In this document: piece by piece, positions 14,090-43,881 of the stretch
How positions within the stretch are numbered: position 1 is the first letter of the stretch
Layout of the letters: each line of letters starts with the position of its first letter
Program-made: the position numbers and the translations under genes
The notes under the pieces: model-generated
What the model saw: the letters and a program-made list of their open reading frames with translations, nothing else
Told to the model about the DNA's origin: nothing
Databases searched by the model: none
Virus record (IMG/VR): IMGVR_UViG_3300045885_000299
Coordinates: 1-64,000 of that record
Length of the DNA stretch: 64,000 nt
Reading direction: 5' to 3' (one strand)
Source: a virus

Positions 14090-16084
14090 TCAGGGGCTCC
14101 AGTAGTAGGACTCGGTGTCGTACAGGCCGCCTTCTTCACCCAGCACCGGGTAGTCGTAGATCGACTGGTGGCCCGTATCAAGCTGCGGAATGGCCTGCGT
14201 CAGCGCCAGCGCGACCTGCCACTCGGGCAGGCGCCCCGGCTCCTGGTTGCGCGTGACCCGCACGCGATCGACCAGGACCTTCCACGGGTAGCCGTCAGGG
14301 TCGCGGAAGCGCGCCGGCTTGGCTTCCTCGCGCAAGCGCTGCAGCTTGCGCTCGAGCAGGAACGTGTCGCGTTCGATCTGCGCCAGGTTGTCGGCCGTCT
14401 CGGCGCGGCCCAGCACACCCGTGATGTTCCAGTGCCACTTGGTCTGGATCGCCACCCGGCCGTGTATTGCAACGGCCCGGATTTCCGGGGGACTGATCGG
14501 GTCCATATTGAAAAAACGCAGCCGCAGCGCAACCCATCGACATTGCGTCCCCTCGGGGAACGTCAGCTCGCACGTCGGGCTCGAGCGCGCATCGCCGAGT
14601 GCGCCGCGGCCGGCGTCCAGGTCGGTGCGCCAGCGGCCATCCGAATCCAGCTGGTAGGCGACCTCGACCCAGCGCCAGGCGCCCATCAGTCGACGGCTCG
14701 AGAGGCGCACCGTGAGCAGCGTTTTCTTCTCGTCGGGCAGGAGAAAATCGAACTCGGGCAGGGTGGCCTCGGGCTGCCACGGCTGCATGTCGTCAATCAC
14801 GTAGCGGCAGTTCGGATCGGAGATCGGATCGTCGCCGTTTGCCGGCAGGATCACCTGCGCGTGACCGGCCGTACCGGCGCTGATGAACAGGTGCGGCGGT
14901 GATTCGGCGTCGGTCAGGTCGTGCTGGCGGAAGTACAGGGCGGATGCCTCGACGCTGCCCATCGTCAGCCAGCTGTGCCATTTGCCGGTGCGCGAGTCGC
15001 GGCGCACGACGTAGCTGGTCTGTGTGTCGTCATCGAACAGGCTGGCGATCGTGTAGCGCAGCGTGTCGCACACGCCAACGACGCGCCCGCGCACCTGGCC
15101 GAGCGCATCGGCGTCGCGGCTCGGGCTGATGTTGGCCGCGGCACCGCTCGTCTGGCTCGAGGGCTGATACTCCCACAGCCCGTTGCCGTTGGGCACCAGC
15201 ACGATGCCGCCGCGCCACACCAGCGGCCAGCAGTTGTCAGGGTCGCGCCGATCGAAGTCCAGGTAATGCGCGGCCGTCCCGGCCACGCCCGGTGGGATGC
15301 CCCACAGACCGTCAGTTTTCCCGACCCACAACGTGACCAGGCCGCCGCCGGCGAGCAGGCTGGTGATCGGTGCCGACGTGTCGCCGATGAGCGCGGTGCC
15401 CTCGGTCCAGGCCGTGCCGACTGTCGTGGCCTGCACTTTGTTCGACCAGCCGCGATACAGCGCGCTCCGATCGGACACCAGCGCCTCGGCCACTTCGCCG
15501 CCAGTCGCGGAGCTCCAGGTCGCCAGGTCGAGCGAGTGCTGCAGCGGGGTGTCGAGGCCGAGCGCAACGTAGGCGCGCTCGCCGTAGATCGCCAGGTCGC
15601 GGCACGGCGCGGGGAACGTGGCCATCTTGACCCAGCCCGGCGGGGCATCCAGGCGCATGTACAGGTGGCTGCCGGCGGTGCAGATGAGCGTGCCGTTCAT
15701 CTCCGTGTACGTGCGCCGCGCGTCGACCTCGCTGCCCAGATCCGGCAGCGGCTCCCACACCTTGGGCGGCGCGGGGATGATGCGGTTGCGATCGGCCTCG
15801 ACGTCGTGGCCCTCGAAATAGCCGACCGTGTCAGTGTCCGACTCGGCGCGTTTCTGGCCGTAGCCGCCATGCCACGACGACTGCGCCACGGGCGAGTCAT
15901 ACGGCTGGTAGTTGCCGAAGCGCCGATCGCCCTGGCTGACCTTGGGCGCGAACGGCTCGAGGGCTGTCACGTCATAGCCGCCGGCGGTCAGCAGCAGCGG
16001 GTCGCCGTCGATCTCGACGTCGCCGATCGGCGGCGCGTGGTCCGCCAGCTGGCCGCCGTAGCCGCCCAGGCGCAGCTCGCTCAC
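14090..16084 (-). CDS. Putative tail nozzle / tubular protein B-like (664 aa)
   Basis: A strand-rich protein with repeated WGIPPG, WEYQPSS and WHSWLTMG-like blades that suggest a beta-propeller. Size and position, directly after the adaptor-like gene and before the fibres, match T7 gp12-type nozzle proteins. This rests on position and fold style, not on a clear sequence match. The GTG at 16084 overlaps the preceding stop (GTGA), which fixes the start. Confidence 0.55.
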   Translation of the reverse strand: MSELRLGGYGGQLADHAPPIGDVEIDGDPLLLTAGGYDVTALEPFAPKVSQGDRRFGNYQPYDSPVAQSSWHGGYGQKRAESDTDTVGYFEGHDVEADRNRIIPAPPKVWEPLPDLGSEVDARRTYTEMNGTLICTAGSHLYMRLDAPPGWVKMATFPAPCRDLAIYGERAYVALGLDTPLQHSLDLATWSSATGGEVAEALVSDRSALYRGWSNKVQATTVGTAWTEGTALIGDTSAPITSLLAGGGLVTLWVGKTDGLWGIPPGVAGTAAHYLDFDRRDPDNCWPLVWRGGIVLVPNGNGLWEYQPSSQTSGAAANISPSRDADALGQVRGRVVGVCDTLRYTIASLFDDDTQTSYVVRRDSRTGKWHSWLTMGSVEASALYFRQHDLTDAESPPHLFISAGTAGHAQVILPANGDDPISDPNCRYVIDDMQPWQPEATLPEFDFLLPDEKKTLLTVRLSSRRLMGAWRWVEVAYQLDSDGRWRTDLDAGRGALGDARSSPTCELTFPEGTQCRWVALRLRFFNMDPISPPEIRAVAIHGRVAIQTKWHWNITGVLGRAETADNLAQIERDTFLLERKLQRLREEAKPARFRDPDGYPWKVLVDRVRVTRNQEPGRLPEWQVALALTQAIPQLDTGHQSIYDYPVLGEEGGLYDTESYYWSP

Positions 16085-17067
16085 ATTGGTCCCGGCGTCG
16101 AGTGTGCCGCCAGATAGTCTCCGTTGCGTCGCCAGCCGAGCGTGGGTGCCGCCCACGGCGTGATCGAGCGCCGCGGCGGATGCGACATGAGCAGCTGCGG
16201 ACGCAGGTCGTTGGCGTCGTTGCGCGCGACCTGGACCAGCTCGAGGATGCGCTTGACGTCCTTGACCGGCGCACCGTTGGCGCCCCACATCCACAGCCGC
16301 TGGATGGCCACGGCCAGCAGGTACTCGACCATCTGTCCGTCACGATCGTCAGCGCCGACCGTGACCACGTCGCTGGCCTGGCTGAACGGCGGCAGGATGC
16401 CCTTGCCGACGATGCGCAGGAAGTGGTCGGGCGGTGGCGCGTTGCGGAACGCGATCGTGCGCGTGACGGAACCGCCAGACTGGACCGCGTTGCGCACGCT
16501 CCACCCGTAGCCCGCCGCATCCTCACCCGGTTCGTCTCGCTCGCGCAGGACCTCGATGCCGAGCACCTCCTGGATCGCGGGCGGGCACGGATAGAGCGTC
16601 GTGCCAGTGGTCGTGGTCGTGCTCAGGTCCTCGACGCGCCGCCAGAAGAAGATCGGCAGCATGCGGATCGCCGCATTGAGTGCCGCCAGCTTGCGTTCGC
16701 GCGACCAGTGCCAGTTGACCTGGTACTGGTCGCCCACCGAGCCCTGGACGAGCAGCGTGCCGCCACCGAAGGTGAAGTGCCCGACCTGGGCGGTGCCGCC
16801 CTCGAGTCCGTCGTAGGCAGTGATGCGCAGCTCGCGGCCGATGTTCGAGGTGGCCGCGCCGCCGTGGTAGTAGAACCAGCCGTACTTGTAGGTGTTGCTC
16901 TGCTCGAAGCGCGTGGCATCGCGCACGCTGATGGTGTCGCCGGTCACATGGGTGAGCGTGCCCTCGGCATAGTCGCCCATGCGCGAGGCCAGCTCGCGGA
17001 TCAGGTCAGCGGCGGTGGTCGCACCGCTGGGGGCTGGGCTTTCGCCACCAGGCAGGACGATCGGCAT
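16081..17067 (-). CDS. Putative head-tail adaptor (T7 gp11-like position, 328 aa)
   Basis: It begins with a helix LIRELASRMGDY and has a second helical block WHWSRERKLAALNAAIRMLP, followed by strands. This resembles the layout of podovirus adaptor/gatekeeper proteins. It is followed by the nozzle candidate with a GTGA overlap. The start ATG 17067 is 23 nt after the late element at 17090-17116. Confidence 0.55.
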   Translation of the reverse strand: MPIVLPGGESPAPSGATTAADLIRELASRMGDYAEGTLTHVTGDTISVRDATRFEQSNTYKYGWFYYHGGAATSNIGRELRITAYDGLEGGTAQVGHFTFGGGTLLVQGSVGDQYQVNWHWSRERKLAALNAAIRMLPIFFWRRVEDLSTTTTTGTTLYPCPPAIQEVLGIEVLRERDEPGEDAAGYGWSVRNAVQSGGSVTRTIAFRNAPPPDHFLRIVGKGILPPFSQASDVVTVGADDRDGQMVEYLLAVAIQRLWMWGANGAPVKDVKRILELVQVARNDANDLRPQLLMSHPPRRSITPWAAPTLGWRRNGDYLAAHSTPGPM

Positions 17068-28729: not shown

Positions 28730-28855
28730 CTACAGGCCGCGCCACAGGTGCTTCGTCCACCACGAATGGCAGCCGGTGAACGAATACCCGTACAGCAGCG
28801 GCGCGAACCGTCCGTAGCGCCGCCCGCGCCGAAGCCGCCGCCCCCACCACTTCAT
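28730..28855 (-). CDS. Basic/aromatic 41-aa microprotein after giant gene
   Basis: Begins MKWWGRRLRRGRRYGRFAP and ends with an aromatic-rich segment. ATG overlaps the stop of the giant polyvalent gene (ATGA), so it is translationally coupled. Possibly membrane-active, but this is inference from composition. Confidence 0.5.
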   Translation of the reverse strand: MKWWGRRLRRGRRYGRFAPLLYGYSFTGCHSWWTKHLWRGL

Positions 28856-31800
28856 GCCGCTGACGCCAGGTCGTCGGTGCCGTACACGCTCAGGTAGTCG
28901 GTCTCCTTCACGAAGCGCTTGAAGGCCGGGTTGACCAGCCGCTTGAGCTGGCGCGCCAGGGCGAGCGTCTGCAGCCGCCGCGGATCGAGCCGCGGCAACG
29001 TGTTCCAGGTCTTGAGCCAGGCGTCCCACTGCGCCCATTGCGCGGGCGTGCCGACCGCCTGGCCGCGCCGATCGGCGTAGCGCGGAATCTGCTGCAGTTG
29101 CTCCCATTGCTCGTCGCTGAGTGATTTGCCGACGCCGTACCAGCGCTGATAGTCGGGGCTCGACAGCTGCGCCTGGAGGACCTGCTGATTCTGCATGATC
29201 TCGAGCGTCTGGCCCTCGCGCGCGTACCGCTTCTTGAGGGCGCTTGCGTTCGGCAGCGCGCGCCACTTGGCCAGCCAGGCGTCCCACTGCTCCCACTGCT
29301 GCGGCGTGCCGTAGGCCTGGCCGTTCCAGATGTAGCGCGGCATCTGATCGGTCTGCTGCTTGACCTGGCCGGCGCGCACGATCGACTGCTGGTGCGGCCC
29401 ATCCAGGTTGGCGAAGGCGTCCGGCGAGAGCACGCGCGAAATGTCGCCGCGCTCGGCCGCCGCGGTCGTCGTCTGTGCGCGCACCGCCTGGCGGTAGGCG
29501 GGATTGACCAGGTCCTCGTCGCTGTAGGTCGACGCGAGCTCGGCTTGCCGTTCGGTGGGCGGCACCGCGTGCGCCGGGTCCTTGCTGAACGCGGAGGTGA
29601 CGCGCAGCGATTCGTCTATTTCGGCCTGCAGCGTCGGGCTGGTGACGTTGCGGTACTTGGCCGGCAGCGTGCTCGGCTCGGGCGGCGCTTCCAGCCCGAG
29701 CGCCTGGAGCGCGGACTCGCGGGCCAGGCTCTTGGCGTTTTCGACCATCAGCTTCTTCCGATTGTCGGGCGAGTCCTGATAGCCGGGCGAGGCGAACAGG
29801 GTTTTCAGCGCCAGGCGCGTCTTGGTGCCCTGGTCGATCTGCAGCGCGCGCTGCTCGGTGTCGGTCAGCACGCGCTCGCCGAGCTTCCTGTCGGGTTTTG
29901 TCACCAGCGGTGCGCCAATGCGCAGCAGCTCGGCCGTCTCGGGATCGGCCTGGTACGCGCTCGGCCGAATCGGCGTCCAGCTCCAGACGCCCGGCCCGGC
30001 GTGCGGCCGCGCCTCGCCGTAGGCGGTCAGCTTGGCCGGCACCATCTGCGACAGGCCTGGAATGCCCATCAGGATCGCGTCGAGCGGGCTCTTGGGGTCC
30101 TTCATCATCGGGTCCATCGCCCGCGCGAACATATTGAGAAAACCGCGGTACGGGACCATGCTCGAGAGCTGGTTGTCGACAAACGCATCCCAATACTGCT
30201 CGGGGTCCTGGATCGCCTGGATGGCGTCGCGGATGGCGACCAGCCCGGACTGCTGCAGGAACACGCCGCCGAAGTTGGACACGAAGTAGAAGAGCGAGGC
30301 GGTGTTCTTATCCAGCGTGCCCGGCTCGACCTTGTCGCTCTGTGATTCGACCAGCGTGGCCGCCAGCGCGATCGGCAGCGTCCAGTGGCCCATCAGGTTC
30401 TGATACGGCACGTAGGTGTCGCCGATCTTGAACGACCACGGCGTCCAGCCCTGCTCGCGCAGCGCCCGCCGCTTCTGATCGTTGCTCGGCCCGGCCCCGG
30501 TGATGAAGCCCTGCGCGGTCAGTGCGGCAATGCCCATCATGGCCAGCGTGCCGACGATCGCCCGCCCGCGGTCCTCGGCCGCGAGCGCCATGTTGCCCTG
30601 GCGCCGCCGCCGTTCTGCCCGCGCGAAGCCATACGGGGTGAGGCCGGCGCCGACGCGCAGCAGGTTGAGCGTGGTGCGCAGGAACGGCAGCAGCCACGCC
30701 ACGCCCGGGTTGGCGCGCATCGAATTGAGCCCGCCCAGCCAGCCCTCGAGCCGCTCCTGGAAGATGCGCCGCTCGGCTCCACGCGCCGATCGCTCGAGCA
30801 AATCGGGGTAATCGAGAATGTTGTCGCGCACTTCGCCGAAGCTACGGCCGGTGCGACGGGCGGTGCCCTCGATCTCGGACGCCATCGACATGCTGTGGGC
30901 CAGCGAATAGAAGAAGTCGTCGACTGTGGCCATCGTGCGGAACACCAGGTTCAGCGGACGGAACGGCGCCCAGGTGATGAGCCCGCTGTACTGCGTCTGC
31001 AGGTCGCGCATCTGGCGCGTGCTGATGCCGGTGGCCCACGTCACCTTGGCGTCCTGGAGCGCCTTCGACCAGCCGCTTGTCAGGCCTGAGATTTCGGCCG
31101 CCATCTGCGAGTAGTACGCCTCGCGCGGTCGGCGCCGGCCGCGGATGGTCAGAATGTCCTCGCCGAGTGCCGCCGCACCGCGCTCGATCGGTGCCGCGAA
31201 CGCCATCATCAGGTTGCCGAAGGTGTTGACCAGCTGGGTACTGCTGCCCGACAGCAGGCTGGCCACGCGGATCGCGCTGACCTGGTTCCACACGCTCGGC
31301 GTGACCATCATGCGCGCCAGCGTGGCCGCCGAGCGCGGGTCGGTCCAGTCGATCACCTTGAGCAGCGCCGCGCGGCGCTCTTCGGTCAGCGCCTTCCAGT
31401 CGGGCCCTGTGAAGATGCGCATCAGCTGCGCCTCGCTGACCCGCCGCTGATAGGCCTCGGCTTTGCGCTTCGCGTACCCGCCCAGCTCCGAGAGGTTGTC
31501 CAGGAGCCCCTTGGCGTCCTTGAGAAAGGCCGGGCTGCGCTCCTGGGCCTTGATGATGCGGTCGATGCGCTTGAGTGCATCGCGCACCATCTCGCGCAGC
31601 TCGGTGTCTTTCGGCTCGGGCGCGCCCTTGCCGAGCATCTCGCGTTCGAGCTCGCGTTCCAGCTTGCGCTCTTCGGCACGCCGCGCCTTATCGGTGTCCG
31701 AGACGGCTGGCCGTTCGGCCTTTTTGCGGGCGCGGTCCTGGATCTTGCCGCGTAGCTCGGTCAGGACCTGGTCGTGCAGCTGCTGGAGGGTGTCCAGCCG

Positions 31801-34800
31801 TGGGTCGGCCGTGGCCCGCGCGAGCGCGATCTGCTGACGCAGGTCGATCAACTGCCGCGCGAGGTTCTGATCGACGCCATTCAGCGTGCGCGCATTGAGC
31901 GGATCGCGGTACAGCCGCGTGAGCGCGTCGGCGTCGGTCTTGGACTTCTCGATCGCCTGGCGCAGGCGGCTGGTGAGGCCGGCGGCCATGCGCCGCAGGT
32001 CCTTGTCCTCGGGCGTGCGCTGGACCTGGTTCTCGATCTGCGCGCGCACCTTCAGCTCCAGGGCGGCCAGCTCGCGGTCGCGGTCCTCGCGTAAGCGGGC
32101 TTCACGGCGCACATCACCGTTGGCCAGGGCTTTCAGGCGCTCCTGCTCGAGCTGCACCACGTTCAGCGCGCGCTCGCGGTCGAGCGTCGAGAGCATGCCC
32201 TTCTGGATCGCGGCCGACGTCTGGATCAGCCACTTGGGTTGTCCGCGCACGCCTTGCGGCCCGATGCGTCCGGCCGCGTCGATGCCGAGCTCGCCGCCGA
32301 TCAGGGTGAGCAGGTCCAGGCGCTTCTGCTCGGGCATGCCGCGGATCATGCCCTCCATCTCGTCCGGGCTGATGGACTGGTGGATGCCCTCTGCAATCAT
32401 GCGCCTGGCTTGCGCCTTGGCCTTCGCGCGCAGCCGTTCGCGGACCGACTCGTGGAACGTCTCGGCCGTCAGGTCCTCGTCAAACGGGATCTCCCGATTG
32501 AGCTGCTTGTACAGGTCGTCGTAGACCCGCTCGGCGAGCTGCGAGAGCACCTCGACGCGCTCAGAGGCAATCTCGTCGGCGCGCGCATGGTTCCCGGCCC
32601 GGCGCTCTTCCATGATCGCCTCGTTCAGGTCCAGGAACTGGTCCCACAACGAGGCCTCGACCTCGCGCGCGGTGCGTTCGGCGTCCGGATCGGTCTCCAG
32701 CTGCGGCTCGCGGCGCTCGGTCTTGACCAGCGGCGTCTTGCCGTTGACCGATGGGCCACGGCCGTCGAGCATCTCGTCCACGACGCCGGTGTCGGGCGTG
32801 TAGCCGCCCTTGCCGTCCGCGATCCCTTCGAGGTGCTTGCGCAGACGTTCGAGCTCGGCGCGCTCGGTGTCGCTCAGCGGCGCGCCCTCCTTGCCGTTGG
32901 TCAGGCTGCCGAGCTTGGCGCGCGTCTGGCCGTCGTAGTCGGCGCGCGCGCGCCAGTAGTCGGCGGCCGCGATCAGGTGCTGCAGCTGCATGTGAATCTG
33001 CAGGCTGTTGAGCGCGCGCGCGTGCTCGGTGGAGGCGCGCGTCATGCCCAGCCACAGGTGCTCGTAGATCGCCGACAGGTCCTCGAGGCGGGCCGACAGC
33101 GCCGCCTGGTCGCCCAGCCCGGCGTCCAGGTCGCTGCGCGTCTGGCCGATCTCGCGGATGGTTTGCAGCACGCCGGCGCGCAGCGCGGTCAGGTCGCTGG
33201 CCATGCGGCCGGCGTCCATGCTTCTCCACGCGCGGGCCAGCGTTTCAGTATCGAGACCCGTCAGCTTGGCCGCCTCGTCAATCCAGTCCTGGTGGCTCAT
33301 CACCTCCTTGACCTGGCCGTAGTCGACCCAGCCCTTGTCGATCATCTCGAGCACGGCGTTGGGCATGGCCGAGTGCCAGTAGCCCGAGCGGACGCGGTGG
33401 AGCGGGCCGTTTTCGGCGCCGCCGGTGGGTGGTGGCGGTGGCGGGGTTGGCGGAGCCGGCGGCGTGGGCGGTGGCGGCTCGCCTGCACCGGGGCCTTGTG
33501 GCGGACCTGCGGGAGGGACAGCGGCGCCGCCCGCATTTGTCGGCGCCGCTGTCGGCGGCAGTTGGGGAGTTGGAGGCACTCCTGCCGCCGGCTCGACCGT
33601 AGGCGCTTCGACGGGTGGTGTCTCCAGTTCTGCCTCGAGCGTCTTGGCCTGCTCGGTCGCCGGCTCGGCCACCTCGTCGCCATCGGGCCGCGGCTTCTGC
33701 GATGGCGACGGCTTGCTGCTCTCCCCGCCGCGGTACTGGTTGGTGACGAAGCTCGGCAGCACGTAGGTGGTGGAGCCGTCGACGCCGGTGGCGATCTGCG
33801 GCGTGGGCGTCTTGGCCGGCTTGGGCGCTGGTTCGGGCTCGGCGGCCTGAGTTACGACGAAGGCGTCGTAGCCCTCTTCCCAGGCCTTCCGCTCGGCTGC
33901 CTTCGATGGACCCTTGTAGTACGGCGGCACGTCGCGCGGCTTGCCTTCGCGCGCATCGTTCTCGCCGCGCAGGTACGGGATCGAGGCCTCCTGCGACGGC
34001 TTCCGCGTCGGCTTCGGCTGGTCGCCGGGCGTGGGCGGCACGTTGACGTCGGGCTGCTTCTCGGCCTTCTCCGCGGCGTCAAACTGCTTGAGCAGGTCCG
34101 GGTGGTCGGCCAGGATGCGCTGGCTCTCGGGCAGGTCGCGGTCCATGTCGCCGCGCGTGATCGCGTCGATGATCGCCTGGCGATGCGACTCCCTGTGGTT
34201 GGGGCGCATGATCGTGTCCACACGCCGGCGCACCCAGGTCTTTTCGACCTCCCACTCTTTGAGCGTCTGCTGCCAGGCGGGCCGAGGGTCCACGACCGGC
34301 TTGTCGAACACCAGCCGTACCGTGCGCGCGTCATCGAACGTCTCGCGGATGACCTCGTAGCCCTGTTCGGCCAGGAGCTGCTTGTAGCGCTCGACGCGCG
34401 CCAGGTCCTCGGGCCGCGCGTCCTTGCCGCGGAAGATGCCTTTCAGCTTGAGGACGCCCTGCTGCGCGTCCCAGGCGACGTCGATCTGCGCGAGTGCGAC
34501 CGTGCGTTCGGCGTCCTCGAGCGGTGGCGGGGTGTCGGTGACGCTGCTCGGCGTTTCGGGGTTTTCGTCCAGCCAGGCCTTGGCGCCGCCATACTCGCCG
34601 CGCAGCTGCTCGTCCGACCACTCCGCAACCCCGACGATCGTCGGGTCGTCACGGGTCGACTCAAACGCGCGAACGTAGAAGTCCTGAATGGTACGGACGG
34701 CGTTGTCGCGGCCTTCCTGCGTCAGCGGCTCGATGACCGGCTCGGGTTCCGGCGCGGGCGTCGTCGGTTCGCCCGGTGTCACGTCGGTCGGTGTTTCGCC

Positions 34801-37800
34801 GAATCGAACTTCCACAGGGTTACCAGCCGTGTCGGTCAGGCTGATCCGATCGACCGTGATCGGATCGCCAAAGCTGCTGTGGTCGTAGCCCGAGTAGCGA
34901 TCGCCGGCGCCCGCCTTCACGTAGGCCAGCGTCACGTGCGGCACGTAGTCGGGATACGTGGCCCCCTCGACGTCGCCGGCCGCGTCGAAGATGGCCACCC
35001 GCAGCTCCTTGAGCAGGTCGTTCGGTTCGACCGACGCATACACCACGTCCGACTCGGGGCGGTTGTCGTCGGCCGGGAAGTGGCGGGTCTGGCCCAGCTT
35101 GATCTCGAACGGCTTGAGGTCCTGGACGGCCTGGCGGATGGCGTCCTCGCTGCCCGGCTTGATGCCGTAGACCACCGTCAGGTGCGGCGTCGCTTCGATC
35201 TCGATGACGTCCTCTGTGCGCAGGCCTGGACCAACGACCTCGAGGAAGCTGGGGATGCCGGTCAGGTCGATCTGCGTCGAGGCCTGCGAGAACTTGGGCT
35301 CCGGCGGCGGTGGTGCCGCCTCGGTGCCGGTGTCCATCAGGTCCTGCAGCAGCTCGCCGCGGATGGCCGCCTCCAGGTCCTCGTCGGTCGGCACGCGATC
35401 GAGCTCGGCCCACTTCTCGTTCGACATGCGGGCCATAATCATCGCCTCGGCCTGCTGGTTGGCCCGCAACCGCAGCTCGTCCGGCCAGACCGCGGTTTCC
35501 TCGAGCGAGCGCTGCACGCTCTCGAGGTCCTGGGTCGCGCGCTCGATCTCGCGCTGGTACAGGGACACGTTGTCGGGCACCTTCGCCCGTGCGTTTTCGA
35601 CGCGCTGGATCAAGCCCGGCCCGCTCATCGCATCCCGCTTGGGTAGGAACGTGGTGAAGTACGGCGTCTCGGTCGGCCCAATCAACGCGAGCGTGAAGCC
35701 CGGCACGCCCTCGTGCATGCCCGCGGCGACCAGGTGTAGCGGCCAACCGTCGAGCGCGCCGAGCTCCGATGCCCTCGCCTCGCTGTTGTCGATCACGTCC
35801 ATTTCGCGCAGCACGGCTTCGGCCAGGTGTTGGCCGACGTCGTCGCGGCTGTAGTTGGCGCCGTCGATGTTCCAGGCCGTCCCGCGCGTCGGGTCCGGCA
35901 GCAGCGCCAGCGCCTCGGCGTCCTGTTGCGCCTTGGCCAGCTTCTCGGTGTTCTCGGCGATCTGCTTCGGCAGCGTGTTCAGCTTCCAACCTGATTGCGA
36001 GCGCTGGCCCTCCCACGCTCGCTTCTGCGCGCGCAGCGTCTTGCCGGTGTCCTGGACCTGGAGCAGCCGCAGACCCCACGGATCGCCCGACGCCAGCATG
36101 CGGAAGGTCGCGGCGTCCATCGTGCCCTCGTCGGCTTCTTCGACGGTGCGCTCGGTGACTTCGCGGCGCATCAGGGCCTTGATGGCCTTCCACTTGGCCA
36201 GCACCGTGCTCCACAGGTAGGCGTCGAAGGGCCACTCCGTGACATACGTGTAGACGCGCACGCCGCGGCCAGGATCGGCAACGTTCGGTAGGCCGCTCGC
36301 GTCGCGCACGGTGTTGCCGTTGGCGTCCTTCTCGAGCTCGGGACCGTAGATGTTGCCCTGGCGCAGGATGCGCCCCTCGCGCTGCTCGATATCGCGCGGC
36401 CGCCACGGCGTGTCCAGGTGGTGCAGCGCCGCCAATCGCTCCTGGATGTTGACGCCGGCGCCGAGCTTTTCCGTCGAACCAAGGATGACGCGCACTTCGC
36501 CGCGGTTGACCTGGTCGAACAGCGACTCCAGTGCGGCCTTGTTCTTGGCCTCGTGCACGAACCGAATCTCGGCCGCCGGGATGCCGCGCTGCACGAGCAG
36601 CTGCTTCATCTTTTCGTAGGTGACCTGGCGATCGCGCGCCTCCTGGGCGTCCTCGGCGTGCTCTTCCCAATAGTCGTCCACGATCGCCGTGCGCTGGTCC
36701 TCGTCGGTCACCCCCTGCAGCTTCCGCTTGAGCTCGTCGGGGTAGTCCGATTCCTTGACGGAGGCCTTCTCCTTGGGCGTGCCCATGTCCATGAACACGA
36801 CCTGCGCGCCGCGATCGGCCGCGCTCTCGCGCCACACCTCGTGGATGCGCTGGGCGGCCTGGCGCAGCTTGGAGTTGGGCAGGTCCGGGCCGCCGACCAG
36901 CGTCGGATCAAGCGAGGCCTTCCTGGCGTCGCTGGTGATCTTGAGCATGTTGTCGGTCTTGCGGTCGCGCGGATCGAGCGCCGCGGCGCGATCGGCCAGG
37001 CGCTTCTGCTCTTCCTTGTGCCAGTCGGTCGACCTGATCTGGACCGGGATGCGCTCGCCGCCCTTCTCGGTGCCGACCATGCGCGGCTTGAGCGCTTCCA
37101 TCTCGGGCACATCGACCGACATGCGCACGTCGGCGAAGTCCTGGAACATGCTCGACAGCTCGGGCACGTTGATGAACCGCGAGAAGCGGTACAGCATCTT
37201 GTTTTCGCCGGTGATCGTGGTCTCGAAGCTCGGGTGGGCTTGCCCGTAGGCCTTGGCCCAGCCGTCGAAGTGCTGCATCGCCTGGCGCTCGAGCTCGGGC
37301 CGCGCCAGGTAGCGCATCATCGTCCACAGCTCGGCGATCGAGTTACTGATCGGGGTGCCAGTGGCGAACACCACGCCGCGCCCGTTCTGCTTCGACTGCA
37401 GCCAGCGCACCTTGTTGAACATGTCCTGGGCGCGCAGCGCGCGCGAGCCCGGATTGAGGCCCTTGATCGAGCCCATCTTGGTCACGAACGGCAGGTTCTT
37501 GTACAGGTCGGCCTCGTCCACAAAGACCTGGTCGACGCCCAGCTGCTCGAACGTGAGTGCGCCCTTCTTGCGCTCTTTCTGATACCTGGCCAGCCGCGCC
37601 GCGTTGTCGCGGATTTGGGTCTGCGTCTTGACGATCATGGCCCGGATTTCCTTGAACGTCCGGTCCTGGTTCTTGGGCCCCTTGTAGCCCTCGTGCTCCA
37701 TCTCGGGTCGCCAGTCGATGCCGTTTTCCTGGGCGTATTCCTCGGCGATCTTGATGACCTCGTTCAGGTCGCCCGTGAGCAGGTCGATGGTGGTCTGCGG

Positions 37801-40800
37801 GTGCAGCTCCAGGAGCGTGAACTGGCTCTGCGCCATGATGACCGCGTCCCAATCGCCAGTGGCGATGCGCGCCATGAGCACGTTGCGCCGCTCGGGGGAA
37901 AAGTCGGCCGTGGTCGGCACCAGCAGCCGCGCCTGCGGATACAGCCGCTGGAACTGCGCCGCGAACTGCGGCACCACGCTGTTGGGCGTGACGATCAGGT
38001 TCTTCTTGGCCAGCCCCAGGCGGCGCAGCTCCATCGCCGCGGCGGCCATCGTGTACGTCTTGCCGAAGCCGACCTCGTGCGCCAGCAGCGCGACACCCTT
38101 CTGGATGATGCGCCAGATGGCTGCCTTCTGATGCGGGTACAGGCCGATGCGCTGGTTGGTGCCATCCAGCGACAGGTGCATGCCGTTCCACTCGCGGTTT
38201 TTGAACACGTTGATGTTCTCGTTGTAGAAGGCGACCAGGCGGCCGGCGCGCTCGGGGTCGGACCACACCCAGCGCTTGAACTCGTCCCGAATCTCGAGCT
38301 TCTTCGCCTCGGCCAGGCGCGTCGCCTCTTCGTTGACGTAGCTGCGGCCGTCAGAGTCCTTGTCCATGACCCTGGTCTGCTTGCTGTTGAGGACGTCGTT
38401 GATGAGGTCAAACGGACTGCGCCGGTCGGTTTCCCAGCGCTGCTTCTTGGCCCAATCCATCCACGGCGCGGTGCGCACGTCCATCTGCCACGAGGCGTTG
38501 GCCGGCAGATAGCGATACCAGTCCATCGGGACGTAGGCGTAGGAGTTGGGGTTGCCGAGCAGGTCGTACACGAACTGGTTGACGTCGGTTTCGGGAATCC
38601 AGCCGACGCCCAGCTCGGCCAGAATCTCTGACGGGCCGACGTCCTTGGGCTGGTTGGCTGCCAGCGCATCCACGTTCGGCTGGTACATCGGGTTGCGCGC
38701 GGCGGCCTGCTCCGCGTCCTTGAGTTTTTGCCGCACGTTCCCCGACAAGTAATCGTCGGCCAGCACGTAGTGCCGATCGGCCGCGTCGACCTCGAGGTAG
38801 GCGCCGCCCTTCGGGTCCAGGAAGATCACGCCCTGGTTGAGCAGGTCGGTGGCGACGTCGGCGACGGAGTGGCCGGTCAGCGACGAGATGCGCGGCAGGT
38901 CGAGTTTTCCCGACTCGTTGAGCGCGATCATCAGGCCGTCTTTGGGCGACTCGGCGCGATCGACGGCGCGCCCGGCGCTCATCACGCGCCTGGTGAACAT
39001 GGCTGACTTGAGCGCCGCCAGGTCCGCCGCGGTGATCGGTTGCTTGCGGTTCTCGGCGCCCTCCCAGCGGCGTTTGGCGGTGTCGTTCCACTCTTCGAGC
39101 GCGCGGAGAAAGAAGCCGCGAGGGTCGTCGCCCATCACACGGCGATTGGTGACGTCGTTCAGCGGCCGCCACTTGCGCACGTACTTGTCGTAGGCGGTGC
39201 GCAATGCCTCCTGGGCGCGCAGCACCTGGTGGTCGGGAGCGCCGGCGCGCTGCAGGTCGAGCACGGCATGCGCCATGTCGTTCAGCTGGAGCATGGCTTT
39301 GACGCGCGCTTCGCCATCCTTGACGTGAAACATTTGTTTCACGAGCTTCCCGGAACGGCTGACCATGACCTGCCCGTTCTGGATGGTGTAGGCGCCCTCG
39401 GCGCCGACGTTCGGGTCGACGCGCGTCGGCAATTCGACCTCGGCCGGCAGCAGCACGTTCTCCGGCAGCTTGGCCAGGACCCGCGGCAACTCCGTGTCCC
39501 ACTCCCGCCCGGCGAGATGGAGCAGCTGGTAATCGTTAGGACCGAACTGACCGCGGCCGATGTGCTCGGCGCCCAGGAGATGGTCCGGGTTGGCGTCGAA
39601 GTAGGCGTTGCGGTAGATCGTCGCCTCGCGGTCGCCACCGCGCGTGGTCAGCGTGTGCTCGTTCGACTCGTACCACGGCACGCGCCGCGCCTCTTCTGGC
39701 GTAAGGGGTTGCTCGCGCTTGCGGAGAAAGATGATGTCGGTCTCGACGTGGGTGTCTTTGAACGTGTTGCGCGGCAGCCGCACGGCGAGCAGCAGGTCGC
39801 CTTCCTGCGCGATGCGCTGGCGGAACTTGAGCGCGTCCTCGGCGTAGCCGTCGAGCGTGAAGCGGCTGGTGATGAACGCCAGCACGCCGCCCGGCCGCAG
39901 CTGATCGAGCGTCTTTTTGAAGAAGTAGTTGTGGATGGTGCGCAGGTACGGCTGATCCAGGTACTCGACGTCGGTCACCTTGAAGTCACCGAACGGCACG
40001 TTGCTGATGGCCACGTCGATCGAGCCCTTGTTGATCGGCGCGTCCTGGTAGCCCATGCCGTGATAGACGTCGGCCTGCGGATAGAGATGCCGCAGCAGCC
40101 CGCCGGTGATCGTGTCCAGCTCGACGGCGGTCATCGCGGCCTTGGGCGCCAGCTGGTCCGGGATCAGCCCCAGGAAGCGGCCGACGCCGGCCGCCGGTTC
40201 GAGCAGGTTGAAGCGGCTCAGGTTTTCGATGCCCAGGCGGCGGAGCGCCTGCCACATGTGCCCGATCACGGTGGGGCTGGTGAACATCGCGTTCAGCCGC
40301 GAGGTGGCCAGTGCTTCCCACTCGGGCGACCCGGGCACGCCTTTCGCCCGGGTTCGCCACCCGGGGTCGATCAGGTCGCGCAATTCTTCGCCCAACGCCA
40401 CGAACTCCGGGTCTGGCTTCGCCTTGCGCGACCTGGGAAAGGCGTCGTTGAAGGCGCTATCGCCCATGCCGCTGTAGCGCGCGAAGGCCTGCAGGTCCTC
40501 GACGGTTGGCTCGCCGCGGCTTTCCTCGAGCGCTTTCAGGCGGCGGATGGCGTCGACGTTGGCGCGGAAGCGCTCGCGCGGGCTGGCGGCCTCCTGCCAG
40601 GCCGCGTCACCGTCCGAGATGCGGTAGTTCTGGCCGAGCTTGACGTCGGGTCGCGCGGGGTCGACGCCCGGTCCGGGCGTGGCGGGTTCTAACTCTGGGG
40701 AAGGAGCGCCAGCACCTCGCGGCGAGCCTGGTCCCACGCCATCCACGCCGGGACGCCGGATCTCTCGAGGTTGCCCACCAGCCGCTTGCACCTCTGGACC

Positions 40801-43800
40801 CGCCGGTCCAGGTCCTGCTCCAGGTCCTTCTCCTGGACCAGGTCCCGGTACGACCTCGGGTCGTTGCTCTTCAGTCCCTCCAGGGCCTGCTCCCTCAGCT
40901 CGCTGTCGCTCGGCGGCTGAAACGGCTCGTCCTGCATCACCCGTAGTTTCGCGCACCCGGGTTGCGGTGTCAGTTGCGGTGGGTGCCAGATGCGCGCCGC
41001 GTTCGCGCAGCCAGCCGGCCGAGACAGGCGCGTTGATGGCGGTGCTGTCGTCATCCTGCGTCCGCCACATGTCGGCGCCCTCGTGCGAGACGACGGTGCT
41101 CATGCCGCCGCCGATGCGCTGGAAGGTGGCGCCGTGCCAGTCGGTCTGGCCGACCTCGAGCGGCGCGTCGATGTAGGCCTCCATCACCTGGAAGCGGCCG
41201 CTGTAGCCCCACGGGCCCAGCGTGATGCCGCGTCGCTCGGCCTCGGCGCGGATGGCGGCCAGGGCCCGCTCGAAGCGCGGGCTGAGCTGGCGGCCGCCGT
41301 ACTGGCGCGGCAGGTCACCTTCGCCCGGCTCCACCTGGACCACGTTGCCGGGGAATTGCTCCAGGCGATTGACCGCGTCGACGGCGAAGGTCTCGTCGGT
41401 CTGTTCTTCCACGCCCATCTGACGGCGGATGGCGGCCTCGGCTTCGGACTGCGTTGGGTACGCCATCTCGAGCCCGATCTGCTCGTCAGGCCGACCCATA
41501 TCGCGGTTCTCGATGTTCCAGGCGGTGACGCCGAATCGGCCGTCCGCCAGCTGGCGAACGCGGAACTCAGTCGTGAAATCCTCGGTCGTGAAGTGGCTCA
41601 GAAAACCCTCGGGTGGCGGACGGCCGTCGCTCTCCTGACGCCGCCGCTCCAGGTCGTAGGCCTCGAACCAGGCCGCACGTTCGGCGCGTGCCTCGGTCAC
41701 GAGCAGGCCCTGCCGAATCGTGCGCGGCTGGCGCGTAAGCGCGGCCTGGCGCCCCTCCTGGCTGGCTTGCTCGATCGACTCGGGCGAGCCCAACGCGATG
41801 GTGCCAGCGGCGCGTTCGTCGGCGCCGCGCTCGTAGCCGCGCACGAGCGCCTGACGGATCGCCTGCCCCTCCGTGGTGCGGTCATCGCGCATGAGCTCGC
41901 CGCCGCGGAGCAGCTTGGGATCGTTGTGCGCGTCGATCAGCTTGCTGCCGCGCAGCCCGTGGTCGTAGCCCAGCTGCTCGGCCTGCGCGGTCATGGCCGC
42001 CAGGTCGCCACCCGTGCGCTGCACGTATTGCATGGCCTTCTTGACCAGCGCTTGCGGCGTCGACGGCACCTTCTGGCCGGTCTTGCGCACGGCCTCGCGG
42101 AAGGCATCGAGCGCCGTCGTGAGCTCGGGCGTCTCCCGATCGTAGGAGGGCCATTGCGAGATGGTCGGGTCGAAGCCGGCGTCCTCGAGCGTGCTGACCA
42201 GTGTGAGCGCCTGGTTGCGCATCGAACGTGGCGCCTGCATACGGAGTTCCCAACGCAGCGGCGCGGCTGGTTCCGCAGCTTGCTCTTCCAGCAGCGGCAT
42301 CTGCCCGGGGAGCACGCGCGCGGGCGCCTCGGCGGGCGGCTCCGTCCCAGGTTCGGGCCGCCGCCAGCTCGGCTCCATGTAGGTCAGCGCTTGCTGGAAC
42401 GCACGCGGGTTGTACGGCTGCCGATCGGCGGCATTCAGCAGCCCCTTGCGCGCGTTATCCAGGTCCTCATACGCGACGGGCTGGCGCCAGTCGATATCGG
42501 TCTGCAGCACGTTCCAGGCCTTCACCCGCGCTTCATTCACGTCGCGCGCGCGCATGACCGCTTTGGCGTTGCCCTCTGCGTCGGGCGGCCACTGCACCAG
42601 CCACACTTCGTCGGCGCCGATATCGCGGATCGCCAGGCCCGTGTCACCGATGATGTGCACCTGCTCGGGCCCGCCGATCGGCGTGCCAACCTCGTCGCGG
42701 TCCTGGAAGGCCTCGGTGCGCGTGATCGGCCCAAGCCCCTCGTCGGCCGCGCGCTGGACCAGCTCGGTCGCGCGCTCGGGCGTGTACTCGGGCACGCCAG
42801 GGAAGAAGGCGCCCAGGTTCAGCTCCGCGCGCTGCCTGGTGCGCAACGCCTGCTGCACCTCGGGCCGCTGCGCCGCGCGCATCGTGGCACCCAGCGCCGG
42901 CCTGGCACCGACACCAGCCGTTACGCCGACCACACGCGCGAGCGCCAGTTCCTCGGGCGTGACCGCCGCGGCCGCGGCGTCGCGTGTCGCCTGCCGCTCT
43001 TCGGGCGTGGCGTTCGGGTTGGTCGCCAGCAGCTGCTGCTCGGCCTCGTTCGCCTTGTCGTTGCGCACCTTCTGCTCGGCCGTCTGCAGGCCGACCGCGC
43101 CGCCGAACACCGTCTCGCCCGGCGACAGCACGCGCCCCGCCACGTTGCCCGCCACTTCGGCCGCGCGCACGCCGCGCGCCCCAGCACCCACGGCTCGAGC
43201 GCCGGCACCACCGACCCGCGCCACCACGCCGGCTTCGGGCGCGAAGTTGAACGGCCCGCCCTCGGCCAGGCCTTTGACCAGCGGCAGCCGCGCGGCCACG
43301 TTCCACGGGCCCTGTCCGAGCGGCGAGTTGGGGTCCTGCGCCATGCGCCAGTAGGCGTCGAAGGCGGCGTCCGGCCCCTGCTCAGCGTGCACCTGGCGCA
43401 GGAACGGCGCGCGCTCGCCGTACAGGTTGTTGACCAGGTCGCCCAGCACGTTCTTGGTCGCTTCGGTGACGCCGGTGATGCCCTCGAACGCCAGCCCGAC
43501 GCCGCCGCCGGCGAGTGCGGCGCCGACCTGGAGCGGCTCGCCCGTCTGCCATGCGCGGTTCACCTCGGCGCCGGCCTGCTCGAGTCGGCGCTGCGGGTTG
43601 AAGCGCATCTCCTGGCGGTTGAAGGCCGCCGATGGCTGTACCAGCGTCTCGGGCTGCTGGATGGCTTGCTGCTCGATCGCCGCGGCGCCGGGGATTTCCT
43701 GGAAGCCGAGACCCTGGCCAACCGCCTGCACGATGGGCGACTGCACGGCGCCCTGGACGGTCTGTCCGAGCCCGCTTTCGCCGAGCTGCTGGAGCGCCTG

Positions 43801-43881
43801 GTCCTTTAGCTGCCCGGCGGCATTGCGCGACTGGTCAATGTAGTCGAGCAGGTCCTTCCAGGGGTCCTGGACTGGCCACAC
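28852..43881 (-). CDS. Giant polyvalent internal virion protein (5009 aa)
   Basis: One uninterrupted frame. Approximate domains: N-terminal about 1-960 of mixed helix/strand; Gly/Pro linker about 980-1070; N6-adenine methylase-like with LLEPAAGVGRF (about 1230) and SNVPFGDF (about 1293); SNF2/DEAD helicase with HEVGFGKT (about 1934), VDEAD (about 2122), ATGTPISNS (about 2173) and a helicase-C block REGRILRQGN (about 2497); two HxT motifs (about 2900 HLTVVYG, 2984 HVTLAYV) of 2H phosphodiesterase type; Pro-rich linker about 3360-3490; coiled coil about 3560-4090; hydrophobic region about 4190-4560; two WxQWDAWLxxW repeats near the C-terminus. Such proteins ride in the capsid and enter with DNA. 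The start is GTG 43881; ribosome site weak. Confidence 0.85.
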   Translation of the reverse strand: MWPVQDPWKDLLDYIDQSRNAAGQLKDQALQQLGESGLGQTVQGAVQSPIVQAVGQGLGFQEIPGAAAIEQQAIQQPETLVQPSAAFNRQEMRFNPQRRLEQAGAEVNRAWQTGEPLQVGAALAGGGVGLAFEGITGVTEATKNVLGDLVNNLYGERAPFLRQVHAEQGPDAAFDAYWRMAQDPNSPLGQGPWNVAARLPLVKGLAEGGPFNFAPEAGVVARVGGAGARAVGAGARGVRAAEVAGNVAGRVLSPGETVFGGAVGLQTAEQKVRNDKANEAEQQLLATNPNATPEERQATRDAAAAAVTPEELALARVVGVTAGVGARPALGATMRAAQRPEVQQALRTRQRAELNLGAFFPGVPEYTPERATELVQRAADEGLGPITRTEAFQDRDEVGTPIGGPEQVHIIGDTGLAIRDIGADEVWLVQWPPDAEGNAKAVMRARDVNEARVKAWNVLQTDIDWRQPVAYEDLDNARKGLLNAADRQPYNPRAFQQALTYMEPSWRRPEPGTEPPAEAPARVLPGQMPLLEEQAAEPAAPLRWELRMQAPRSMRNQALTLVSTLEDAGFDPTISQWPSYDRETPELTTALDAFREAVRKTGQKVPSTPQALVKKAMQYVQRTGGDLAAMTAQAEQLGYDHGLRGSKLIDAHNDPKLLRGGELMRDDRTTEGQAIRQALVRGYERGADERAAGTIALGSPESIEQASQEGRQAALTRQPRTIRQGLLVTEARAERAAWFEAYDLERRRQESDGRPPPEGFLSHFTTEDFTTEFRVRQLADGRFGVTAWNIENRDMGRPDEQIGLEMAYPTQSEAEAAIRRQMGVEEQTDETFAVDAVNRLEQFPGNVVQVEPGEGDLPRQYGGRQLSPRFERALAAIRAEAERRGITLGPWGYSGRFQVMEAYIDAPLEVGQTDWHGATFQRIGGGMSTVVSHEGADMWRTQDDDSTAINAPVSAGWLRERGAHLAPTATDTATRVRETTGDAGRAVSAAERQRAEGAGPGGTEEQRPEVVPGPGPGEGPGAGPGPAGPEVQAAGGQPREIRRPGVDGVGPGSPRGAGAPSPELEPATPGPGVDPARPDVKLGQNYRISDGDAAWQEAASPRERFRANVDAIRRLKALEESRGEPTVEDLQAFARYSGMGDSAFNDAFPRSRKAKPDPEFVALGEELRDLIDPGWRTRAKGVPGSPEWEALATSRLNAMFTSPTVIGHMWQALRRLGIENLSRFNLLEPAAGVGRFLGLIPDQLAPKAAMTAVELDTITGGLLRHLYPQADVYHGMGYQDAPINKGSIDVAISNVPFGDFKVTDVEYLDQPYLRTIHNYFFKKTLDQLRPGGVLAFITSRFTLDGYAEDALKFRQRIAQEGDLLLAVRLPRNTFKDTHVETDIIFLRKREQPLTPEEARRVPWYESNEHTLTTRGGDREATIYRNAYFDANPDHLLGAEHIGRGQFGPNDYQLLHLAGREWDTELPRVLAKLPENVLLPAEVELPTRVDPNVGAEGAYTIQNGQVMVSRSGKLVKQMFHVKDGEARVKAMLQLNDMAHAVLDLQRAGAPDHQVLRAQEALRTAYDKYVRKWRPLNDVTNRRVMGDDPRGFFLRALEEWNDTAKRRWEGAENRKQPITAADLAALKSAMFTRRVMSAGRAVDRAESPKDGLMIALNESGKLDLPRISSLTGHSVADVATDLLNQGVIFLDPKGGAYLEVDAADRHYVLADDYLSGNVRQKLKDAEQAAARNPMYQPNVDALAANQPKDVGPSEILAELGVGWIPETDVNQFVYDLLGNPNSYAYVPMDWYRYLPANASWQMDVRTAPWMDWAKKQRWETDRRSPFDLINDVLNSKQTRVMDKDSDGRSYVNEEATRLAEAKKLEIRDEFKRWVWSDPERAGRLVAFYNENINVFKNREWNGMHLSLDGTNQRIGLYPHQKAAIWRIIQKGVALLAHEVGFGKTYTMAAAAMELRRLGLAKKNLIVTPNSVVPQFAAQFQRLYPQARLLVPTTADFSPERRNVLMARIATGDWDAVIMAQSQFTLLELHPQTTIDLLTGDLNEVIKIAEEYAQENGIDWRPEMEHEGYKGPKNQDRTFKEIRAMIVKTQTQIRDNAARLARYQKERKKGALTFEQLGVDQVFVDEADLYKNLPFVTKMGSIKGLNPGSRALRAQDMFNKVRWLQSKQNGRGVVFATGTPISNSIAELWTMMRYLARPELERQAMQHFDGWAKAYGQAHPSFETTITGENKMLYRFSRFINVPELSSMFQDFADVRMSVDVPEMEALKPRMVGTEKGGERIPVQIRSTDWHKEEQKRLADRAAALDPRDRKTDNMLKITSDARKASLDPTLVGGPDLPNSKLRQAAQRIHEVWRESAADRGAQVVFMDMGTPKEKASVKESDYPDELKRKLQGVTDEDQRTAIVDDYWEEHAEDAQEARDRQVTYEKMKQLLVQRGIPAAEIRFVHEAKNKAALESLFDQVNRGEVRVILGSTEKLGAGVNIQERLAALHHLDTPWRPRDIEQREGRILRQGNIYGPELEKDANGNTVRDASGLPNVADPGRGVRVYTYVTEWPFDAYLWSTVLAKWKAIKALMRREVTERTVEEADEGTMDAATFRMLASGDPWGLRLLQVQDTGKTLRAQKRAWEGQRSQSGWKLNTLPKQIAENTEKLAKAQQDAEALALLPDPTRGTAWNIDGANYSRDDVGQHLAEAVLREMDVIDNSEARASELGALDGWPLHLVAAGMHEGVPGFTLALIGPTETPYFTTFLPKRDAMSGPGLIQRVENARAKVPDNVSLYQREIERATQDLESVQRSLEETAVWPDELRLRANQQAEAMIMARMSNEKWAELDRVPTDEDLEAAIRGELLQDLMDTGTEAAPPPPEPKFSQASTQIDLTGIPSFLEVVGPGLRTEDVIEIEATPHLTVVYGIKPGSEDAIRQAVQDLKPFEIKLGQTRHFPADDNRPESDVVYASVEPNDLLKELRVAIFDAAGDVEGATYPDYVPHVTLAYVKAGAGDRYSGYDHSSFGDPITVDRISLTDTAGNPVEVRFGETPTDVTPGEPTTPAPEPEPVIEPLTQEGRDNAVRTIQDFYVRAFESTRDDPTIVGVAEWSDEQLRGEYGGAKAWLDENPETPSSVTDTPPPLEDAERTVALAQIDVAWDAQQGVLKLKGIFRGKDARPEDLARVERYKQLLAEQGYEVIRETFDDARTVRLVFDKPVVDPRPAWQQTLKEWEVEKTWVRRRVDTIMRPNHRESHRQAIIDAITRGDMDRDLPESQRILADHPDLLKQFDAAEKAEKQPDVNVPPTPGDQPKPTRKPSQEASIPYLRGENDAREGKPRDVPPYYKGPSKAAERKAWEEGYDAFVVTQAAEPEPAPKPAKTPTPQIATGVDGSTTYVLPSFVTNQYRGGESSKPSPSQKPRPDGDEVAEPATEQAKTLEAELETPPVEAPTVEPAAGVPPTPQLPPTAAPTNAGGAAVPPAGPPQGPGAGEPPPPTPPAPPTPPPPPPTGGAENGPLHRVRSGYWHSAMPNAVLEMIDKGWVDYGQVKEVMSHQDWIDEAAKLTGLDTETLARAWRSMDAGRMASDLTALRAGVLQTIREIGQTRSDLDAGLGDQAALSARLEDLSAIYEHLWLGMTRASTEHARALNSLQIHMQLQHLIAAADYWRARADYDGQTRAKLGSLTNGKEGAPLSDTERAELERLRKHLEGIADGKGGYTPDTGVVDEMLDGRGPSVNGKTPLVKTERREPQLETDPDAERTAREVEASLWDQFLDLNEAIMEERRAGNHARADEIASERVEVLSQLAERVYDDLYKQLNREIPFDEDLTAETFHESVRERLRAKAKAQARRMIAEGIHQSISPDEMEGMIRGMPEQKRLDLLTLIGGELGIDAAGRIGPQGVRGQPKWLIQTSAAIQKGMLSTLDRERALNVVQLEQERLKALANGDVRREARLREDRDRELAALELKVRAQIENQVQRTPEDKDLRRMAAGLTSRLRQAIEKSKTDADALTRLYRDPLNARTLNGVDQNLARQLIDLRQQIALARATADPRLDTLQQLHDQVLTELRGKIQDRARKKAERPAVSDTDKARRAEERKLERELEREMLGKGAPEPKDTELREMVRDALKRIDRIIKAQERSPAFLKDAKGLLDNLSELGGYAKRKAEAYQRRVSEAQLMRIFTGPDWKALTEERRAALLKVIDWTDPRSAATLARMMVTPSVWNQVSAIRVASLLSGSSTQLVNTFGNLMMAFAAPIERGAAALGEDILTIRGRRRPREAYYSQMAAEISGLTSGWSKALQDAKVTWATGISTRQMRDLQTQYSGLITWAPFRPLNLVFRTMATVDDFFYSLAHSMSMASEIEGTARRTGRSFGEVRDNILDYPDLLERSARGAERRIFQERLEGWLGGLNSMRANPGVAWLLPFLRTTLNLLRVGAGLTPYGFARAERRRRQGNMALAAEDRGRAIVGTLAMMGIAALTAQGFITGAGPSNDQKRRALREQGWTPWSFKIGDTYVPYQNLMGHWTLPIALAATLVESQSDKVEPGTLDKNTASLFYFVSNFGGVFLQQSGLVAIRDAIQAIQDPEQYWDAFVDNQLSSMVPYRGFLNMFARAMDPMMKDPKSPLDAILMGIPGLSQMVPAKLTAYGEARPHAGPGVWSWTPIRPSAYQADPETAELLRIGAPLVTKPDRKLGERVLTDTEQRALQIDQGTKTRLALKTLFASPGYQDSPDNRKKLMVENAKSLARESALQALGLEAPPEPSTLPAKYRNVTSPTLQAEIDESLRVTSAFSKDPAHAVPPTERQAELASTYSDEDLVNPAYRQAVRAQTTTAAAERGDISRVLSPDAFANLDGPHQQSIVRAGQVKQQTDQMPRYIWNGQAYGTPQQWEQWDAWLAKWRALPNASALKKRYAREGQTLEIMQNQQVLQAQLSSPDYQRWYGVGKSLSDEQWEQLQQIPRYADRRGQAVGTPAQWAQWDAWLKTWNTLPRLDPRRLQTLALARQLKRLVNPAFKRFVKETDYLSVYGTDDLASAA
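39324..39343. repeat. Inverted repeat CGTGAAAC-N4-GTTTCACG
   Basis: Perfect 8-bp arms with a 4-bp spacer inside the giant gene. The half-sites match those of bacterial parS but point outward, so this is not a canonical parS. Similar half-sites occur at 8319-8332, 8384-8392 and 8626-8640. It may be a chance product of VK-type codons. Confidence 0.35.
40689..40937 (-). CDS. Nested overlapping gene inside giant gene (82 aa)
   Basis: In a different minus-strand frame of the Gly/Pro linker of the giant gene lies an 82-aa frame that reads like a true helical protein. It begins MQDEPFQPPSDSELREQALE, continues RDLVQEKDLEQDLDRRVQRC and ends VPAWMAWDQARREVLALLP. The pattern of charged helix, then GxPxWxAWxxARREVLxLLP, resembles small proteins of high-GC mobile elements. 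The giant gene's own codons here use C or G at third positions in only about 13 of the first 40, against a high value elsewhere. This suggests the linker is shaped by the second frame. Start ATG 40937; ribosome site weak (GGGTG). Confidence 0.6.
   Translation of the reverse strand: MQDEPFQPPSDSELREQALEGLKSNDPRSYRDLVQEKDLEQDLDRRVQRCKRLVGNLERSGVPAWMAWDQARREVLALLPQS

Follow-up and report, generated by a model that had tools for sequence, protein, structure and literature searches.

The stretch of viral DNA analysed here (the window, 64,000 nt, positions 1 to 64,000 of the 68,797-base virus record IMGVR_UViG_3300045885_000299) carries a giant polyvalent gene of the DarB-like kind and, nested within it over a Gly/Pro-rich linker, a small open reading frame (ORF) on the same strand that is offset from the giant frame to the +1 phase (Table 1). 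With high confidence, the two form a true same-strand overlapping gene pair, consisting of the giant DarB-like frame and a nested TnpV-like gene. Overlapping phage genes, TnpV and DarB-like giants are all known kinds; for the nesting of a TnpV-like gene in a fixed phase inside such giants, searches of the open-licence literature returned no paper on a TnpV gene nested in a DarB-like gene or on any gene overlapping one. Upstream of its start, the nested frame stays open to 41099 and contains an additional ATG at 41054.

The G+C content at the three codon positions (GC1/2/3) is 0.72/0.40/0.93 in the nested frame, which resembles the giant gene as a whole (0.70/0.47/0.89), and 0.93/0.73/0.40 in the giant frame over the same bases. 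Calculated per 40 codons, the GC3 of the giant (mean 0.89, sd 0.09) drops to 0.30-0.33 at the nested gene, its gene-wide minimum, compared with 0.57-0.70 in the other linker near 33.5 kb, in agreement with the first-pass annotation of this DNA, which had put the value here at about one-third and below that of the other linker. A codon-score scan along the whole giant gave the +1 frame a lead over the giant frame of at most 1.09 nats per codon, with the peak at 40944; slightly positive scores of the +1 frame reach 33546, and the +2 frame was positive at no point.

As a single query, the 82-amino-acid (aa) product gave only weak matches in Pfam, PHROGs and NCBIfam, none among viral contigs and, among plasmids, only a ribokinase match (E=0.6). 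In the tblastn search of phages, its best place (E=0.5) was the end of the DarB-like protein gp22 of Sinorhizobium phage PBC5, immediately before a methyltransferase-helicase reading frame. The match to PHROG_938 (E=0.0067) fits a protein end of the PBC5 type, and the fact that gp22 ends in the nested domain may explain why this family covers it. A profile built from 39 relatives, with the window excluded, matched the nested frame at E=5.4e-9 (32.0 bits), while the next best of the 829 six-frame ORFs of the window reached only E=0.31. By this profile match, the nested frame of the window belongs to the nested family of DarB-like phages, as this family is defined here by alignments A2 and A5.

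Phage relatives fetched through the methyltransferase part of the giant comprised 12 annotated records besides PBC5, and a +1-phase ORF lies ahead of the methyltransferase in all 12. In seven of these phages (Atu_ph08, POI1126, Stean, Mwe-JY07, Itty13, SopranoGao and VvAW1), the ORF at the equivalent place is matched by the PBC5 protein end; in the other five (BcepIL02, JC1, 8P, Y7 and USP_25), it is recognized by its codon-position signature, the sequence being more diverged. The nested gene is annotated in none of the 12 records. In the Pseudomonas phage Itty13 (L009:2625-14960), the giant frame runs on the plus strand of the locus, and what the record shows over it are hypothetical proteins annotated on the other strand. 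In PBC5 (L002:13734-29482), gp22 runs in the nested frame and has the nested domain as its C-terminal end; the methyltransferase frame is open long before the annotated start of gp21, and the change of frame lies upstream of the nested gene.

The family profile search returned 87 loci, 67 from viruses and 20 from genomes, which together with the window and eight named phages make 96 sequences, 81 of them distinct. A methyltransferase lies downstream in 78 of the 87 loci, and the relative phase is identical (+1) in all 78. Two further loci end at a contig edge with the giant frame still open, in six (L094, L095, L096, L102, L103 and L106) the methyltransferase is missing and the would-be giant frame is interrupted by stops, and L060 is free of stops but has an upstream open frame of only 7 codons. 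A second sample was chosen by the methyltransferase alone, to avoid selecting on the nested gene; it took the best 80 of 466 confirmed relatives and is for this reason biased toward the relatives of the window. Within at most 1.5 kb upstream of the methyltransferase, the +1 frame beats the giant frame by more than 0.3 nats per codon in 65 of 79 loci and the +2 frame does so in none, whereas in a control region downstream neither of them beats the giant frame in any of the 80. At E<1e-3, the family profile had matches in the +1 frame of 57 loci and never in the giant or +2 frame, and 69 of the 79 loci are positive by either signature or homology.

Open frames are common, and the GC-rich window alone has 415 ORFs of at least 60 aa, but homology in the same phase and at the same place across many independent assemblies leaves a negligible probability that this is a chance frame or an assembly artefact. 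The proposal that a real gene is nested in the linker of the giant is thus borne out by the coding signature, the window-excluded profile match and the conserved place and phase. Homologues of the 82-aa product are abundant in related phages, and the relatives keep the nested frame open.

Stops in the giant frame were counted over 55 nested representatives less than 90% identical, with the expectation derived from synonymous shuffling of the nested codons. None was observed where 60.2 were expected, while the would-be giant frame of six free-standing representatives has 29 against about 31 expected. For TnpV itself, the nested members (n=7) have 0 stops against 16.1 expected, and six others have 31 against 43.5. 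The ratio of nonsynonymous to synonymous differences (pN/pS) was obtained from 70 sequences in 17 pairs, after exclusion of the window, all copies of PBC5, repeats of an identical sequence and any locus that was truncated or free-standing. With counts uncorrected for relatedness, it is 0.24 in the nested frame, while the same bases read in the giant frame give 1.63 (0.21 and 1.66 before the removal of duplicate prophages); for the part of the giant lying 3' of the nested gene it is 0.10 (12 pairs); substitutions at the nested codon positions 1/2/3 number 108/91/232. The two ratios, together with the complete lack of stops, indicate that the small protein is conserved and that the giant needs only an open linker.

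A different reading of the same open frame is that the giant is really two genes, the linker frame owing its openness simply to the rarity of stops where third positions are GC-rich, with no translation reading through it. For the window alone, 1.1 stops are expected in the giant frame over the nested gene and the probability of none is 0.21, so its openness is unremarkable there and significant only across the family; the methyltransferase gene of Acaryochloris, furthermore, begins only at the end of TnpV. Such a division is nevertheless very improbable, given the zero stops in both the 55 representatives and the nested TnpV, the free-standing copies, in which stops are as frequent as after shuffling or little less so, and the agreement of the upstream and downstream frames with no stop between them.

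The start signals bear on how the nested frame is read. The start codon is ATG in 61 and GTG in 2 of 63 distinct loci, and a Shine-Dalgarno (SD) core of at least 4 bases precedes the chosen start in 61 of 64 representatives. Going upstream from the start, the nested frame meets a stop within 10 codons at 16 of the 63 loci and within 30 codons at 38. A programmed +1 frameshift into the nested frame would instead yield a short giant product, composed of the N-terminal part and the helical domain, and no separate protein. In favour of this are PBC5, where gp22 has the domain at its C-terminus, and the ability of SD-like sequences to stimulate frameshifting. However, the conserved start codon, the SD sequence at its usual spacing and the upstream stops in the nested frame favour independent initiation, and a frameshift is quite improbable.

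The AlphaFold model of the window protein (mean predicted confidence, pLDDT, 88.3) has four helices, at residues 11-25, 27-35, 39-59 and 64-75, which agrees with the helical product read from the sequence at first, and the likeness to small proteins of mobile elements noted at that time finds its counterpart in TnpV. Among 40 nested relatives, 32 have this family (PF14198) as their top Pfam match at E<=0.1, against 3 of 40 for the next family, and the best TnpV match among the relatives has E=3.6e-5. The window protein itself has no match to PF14198 at E<=0.1 or at E<=10. Comparison of the nested family with TnpV by hhalign gave P 0.0033 and a probability of 9.8, with the motif aligned in the profile alignment. 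The predicted model of the TnpV at locus L131 has helices at residues 26-38, 40-48 and 52-78; in this model and that of the window, which were not superposed, a 9-residue second helix stands between a break of one residue and a loop of three, so that the two models share the spacing of their first three helices. We call the window protein TnpV-like, as it is not TnpV by Pfam's rule. It resembles the TnpV of Tn4451-like integrative elements in a motif that the profile alignment pairs, in the helix spacing and in that bona fide members, too, sit inside such giants with an identical phase, and differs in that many TnpV members are free-standing in elements with recombinases. For these free-standing members, an Xis-like excision role is postulated in PMC3158075.

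A sequence search of solved structures returned no relative, the best match being a designed protein (E=0.0085), and Foldseek found nothing significant in PDB. In a VIA fold search, the window model was closest to 2apl (Z 7.2 over 67 residues), which can reflect a common helical arrangement, and the TnpV model had nothing above Z 3.7; the best match in BFVD was the unnamed Q8W6J4_2 (E=0.014). DUF1896 came into consideration for 2apl, and a search with PF08989 gave no match in three records. No defence system was matched by PADLOC.

TnpV scoring above the Pfam cut-off occurs in five records with such giants, picked from Firmicutes or gut samples. Six records were inspected, and five of them carry a TnpV nested in +1 phase (the Monoglobus, Cohnella and Subdoligranulum plasmids, the fecal phage MT835575 and Ruminococcus pRUMAL02); in the sixth, Acaryochloris pREC3, it is not nested and the methyltransferase gene starts where TnpV ends. 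Firmicutes-type giants differ from those of the phages in that TnpV lies farther upstream of the methyltransferase. Among 11 viral TnpV loci, only L131, which has a methyltransferase downstream, is nested, and ten are free-standing. In a Streptococcus suis record TnpV is located after an SNF2 gene, which fits the insertion of TnpV-bearing elements into snf2 reported in PMC9815147.

These free-standing copies bear on the origin of the overlap. The first-pass annotation had proposed that the small gene was overprinted on a linker that tolerates drift, and the linker frame is indeed unconstrained at the amino-acid level, so that such linkers could tolerate a new gene. However, a de novo origin on a pre-existing linker is improbable in view of the free-standing homologues (L095, L096, L102, L103 and L106, the Acaryochloris TnpV and ten of the 11 viral TnpV) and of the gene-typical codon usage and confident predicted fold of the nested frame. 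The proposed polarity is probably wrong: because free-standing homologues exist and the nested frame has the codon usage of an ordinary gene, the small gene is probably the older one, and the linker was probably overprinted as the frame of the giant extended across it. This suggests a route by which linkers may arise, the frame of a large gene running across a neighbouring gene that survives. The free-standing homologue in Pseudidiomarina (L103:5974-6762) has 262 aa and carries a long hydrophobic, probably membrane-spanning extension.

For the overlapping pair, the most likely arrangement is a single mRNA from which two proteins would be made, one being the giant with its own start and the other the small protein, initiated at an internal ATG. 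The giant would be read in frame 0, with about 83 codons forming a disordered linker, free of constraint, that joins its N-terminal part to the methyltransferase-helicase module, while the same bases in the +1 frame would encode the small TnpV-like four-helix protein, ending before the methyltransferase domain. Rz/Rz1 is a nested phage gene pair of a similar layout, with a small gene enclosed out of frame by another on its own strand; it differs in that the proteins are unrelated to those described here, where the overlap falls within a linker of a 15-kb host gene. Since the small gene and the methylase-helicase antirestriction module are recurrently linked, the small protein might be a partner of that module (a chaperone, an inhibitor or a DNA-loading factor), and nesting would keep the genes on one mRNA and inseparable in transfer, although we offer this role only tentatively. 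It is possible, if doubtful to a similar degree, that the antirestriction module of phages, plasmids and conjugative elements has in the TnpV-like protein a dedicated partner, nested since before the divergence of these elements and so inseparable by recombination, with the free-standing TnpV of transposons being escapees or forerunners. The overlapping gene is long-lived, keeps its place and phase in phages and plasmids of very different bacteria and occurs in a very common class of mobile-element genes, where it has been overlooked by annotation, and TnpV, a family without a tested function in the literature seen, gains a recurrent genomic partner.

Among plasmids, those of Burkholderia (L017), Pseudomonas (L019) and Salmonella (L222) each carry a small ORF that lies, with the phase unchanged, within the N-terminal extension of the methyltransferase ORF, that of L222 being similar to those of the other two; their membership in the family is not firm, as it is suggested by place, phase and look, with a profile match of E=0.004 for one L222 frame. 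The annotation begins the methyltransferase gene after the nested gene in L017 (3199-3504, 3597) and L019 (3187-3492, 3822), and in both the open methyltransferase frame continues upstream of the annotated start with related N-terminal residues. In a Mycolicibacterium plasmid (L221:3668-4261), a different, longer annotated gene overlaps the upstream extension of the methyltransferase frame in the same +1 phase. At L113:2464-9045 and L114:3550-9810, TnpV is annotated and the enclosing giant frame has no listed coding sequence, in plasmid tables that are stated to be incomplete. The nested protein of L004 had no match among the plasmids.

Several points weigh against the interpretation as an overlapping gene pair with a separately made small protein. 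The nested gene is absent from the plasmids of Agrobacterium (L224), Enterococcus (L223) and Spirosoma (L220) and from darB of P1, which differs in this from the giant of the window; it is detected by neither test in 10 of the 79 census loci, one of which (L157) is the contig that bears the TnpV nested farther upstream at L131; and PBC5 has it as one continuous frame with the reading frame upstream. The nested ATG of the window lacks an SD sequence, while at the listed starts of 14 large window ORFs checked, one of at least 4 bases was seen in only 5, and the starts in the profile loci were chosen by a script that favours an ATG near the expected place. Like the window protein, the members from Proteobacterial phages fall below the Pfam cut-off for TnpV (18.3 bits against 27 for SopranoGao). 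Many loci are related, so the locus counts are not independent, and the codon-shuffle expectations run slightly high, as the free-standing TnpV (31 stops observed, 43.5 expected) indicate. Finally, the separate production of the small protein is an inference from the DNA.

The giant itself has the succession that marks DarB-like proteins, an adenine methyltransferase and then an SNF2/SF2 helicase, and its tblastn matches to DarB-like and related proteins reach E values down to 3e-59, the relatives being annotated as DarB-like. Its score for N6_Mtase in Pfam (19.9 bits) is just below the cut-off of 20.4. In PMC5512222, the main paper on polyvalent proteins, an LPD36 domain N-terminal to the methyltransferase is described for DarB-like polyvalent proteins; the giant of the window shares with these LPD36-methyltransferase-SNF2 helicase proteins the methyltransferase and helicase parts, and a term search of that paper returned no mention of TnpV, an overlapping gene or a frameshift.

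Table 1. Features of the giant gene and of the gene nested in it (coordinates are positions in the window)
Feature	Position	Strand	Evidence
Nested gene, predicted TnpV-like four-helix protein, ATG start, 82 aa, TAG stop	40689..40937	-	Coding signature; profile match E 5.4e-9; AlphaFold pLDDT 88.3
Giant polyvalent gene, 5009 aa	28852..43881	-	ORF listing and piecewise Pfam matches; encloses the nested gene
N-terminal portion of the giant, located upstream of the nested gene	40993..43881	-	Pfam: no match
Gly/Pro-rich linker, the giant frame over the nested gene	40690..40935	-	Translation and GC by codon position; family pN/pS 1.63, 0 stops in 55 representatives
N6-adenine methyltransferase region, directly 3' of the nested gene	39445..40650	-	Matches in 98 phage and 1915 plasmid records; weak N6_Mtase/Eco57I Pfam hits
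SNF2/SF2 helicase part	35401..39444	-	SNF2-rel_dom 30.9 bits and Helicase_C 31.4 bits, both above cut-offs

A 403-aa piece of the upstream part of the giant (P0002) has zero relatives in viral contigs or phages, and hence no close relative of the window itself was found; the query P0001, used alone, returned one viral locus. The giant also contains a domain of the 2'-5' RNA ligase superfamily (2H-type), within 28855-35400 on the minus strand (46.1 bits). Elsewhere in the window, the opening codons (16219-16294) of the ORF at 14090..16294 on the minus strand fit another frame better by codon score, so its true start is probably further in.

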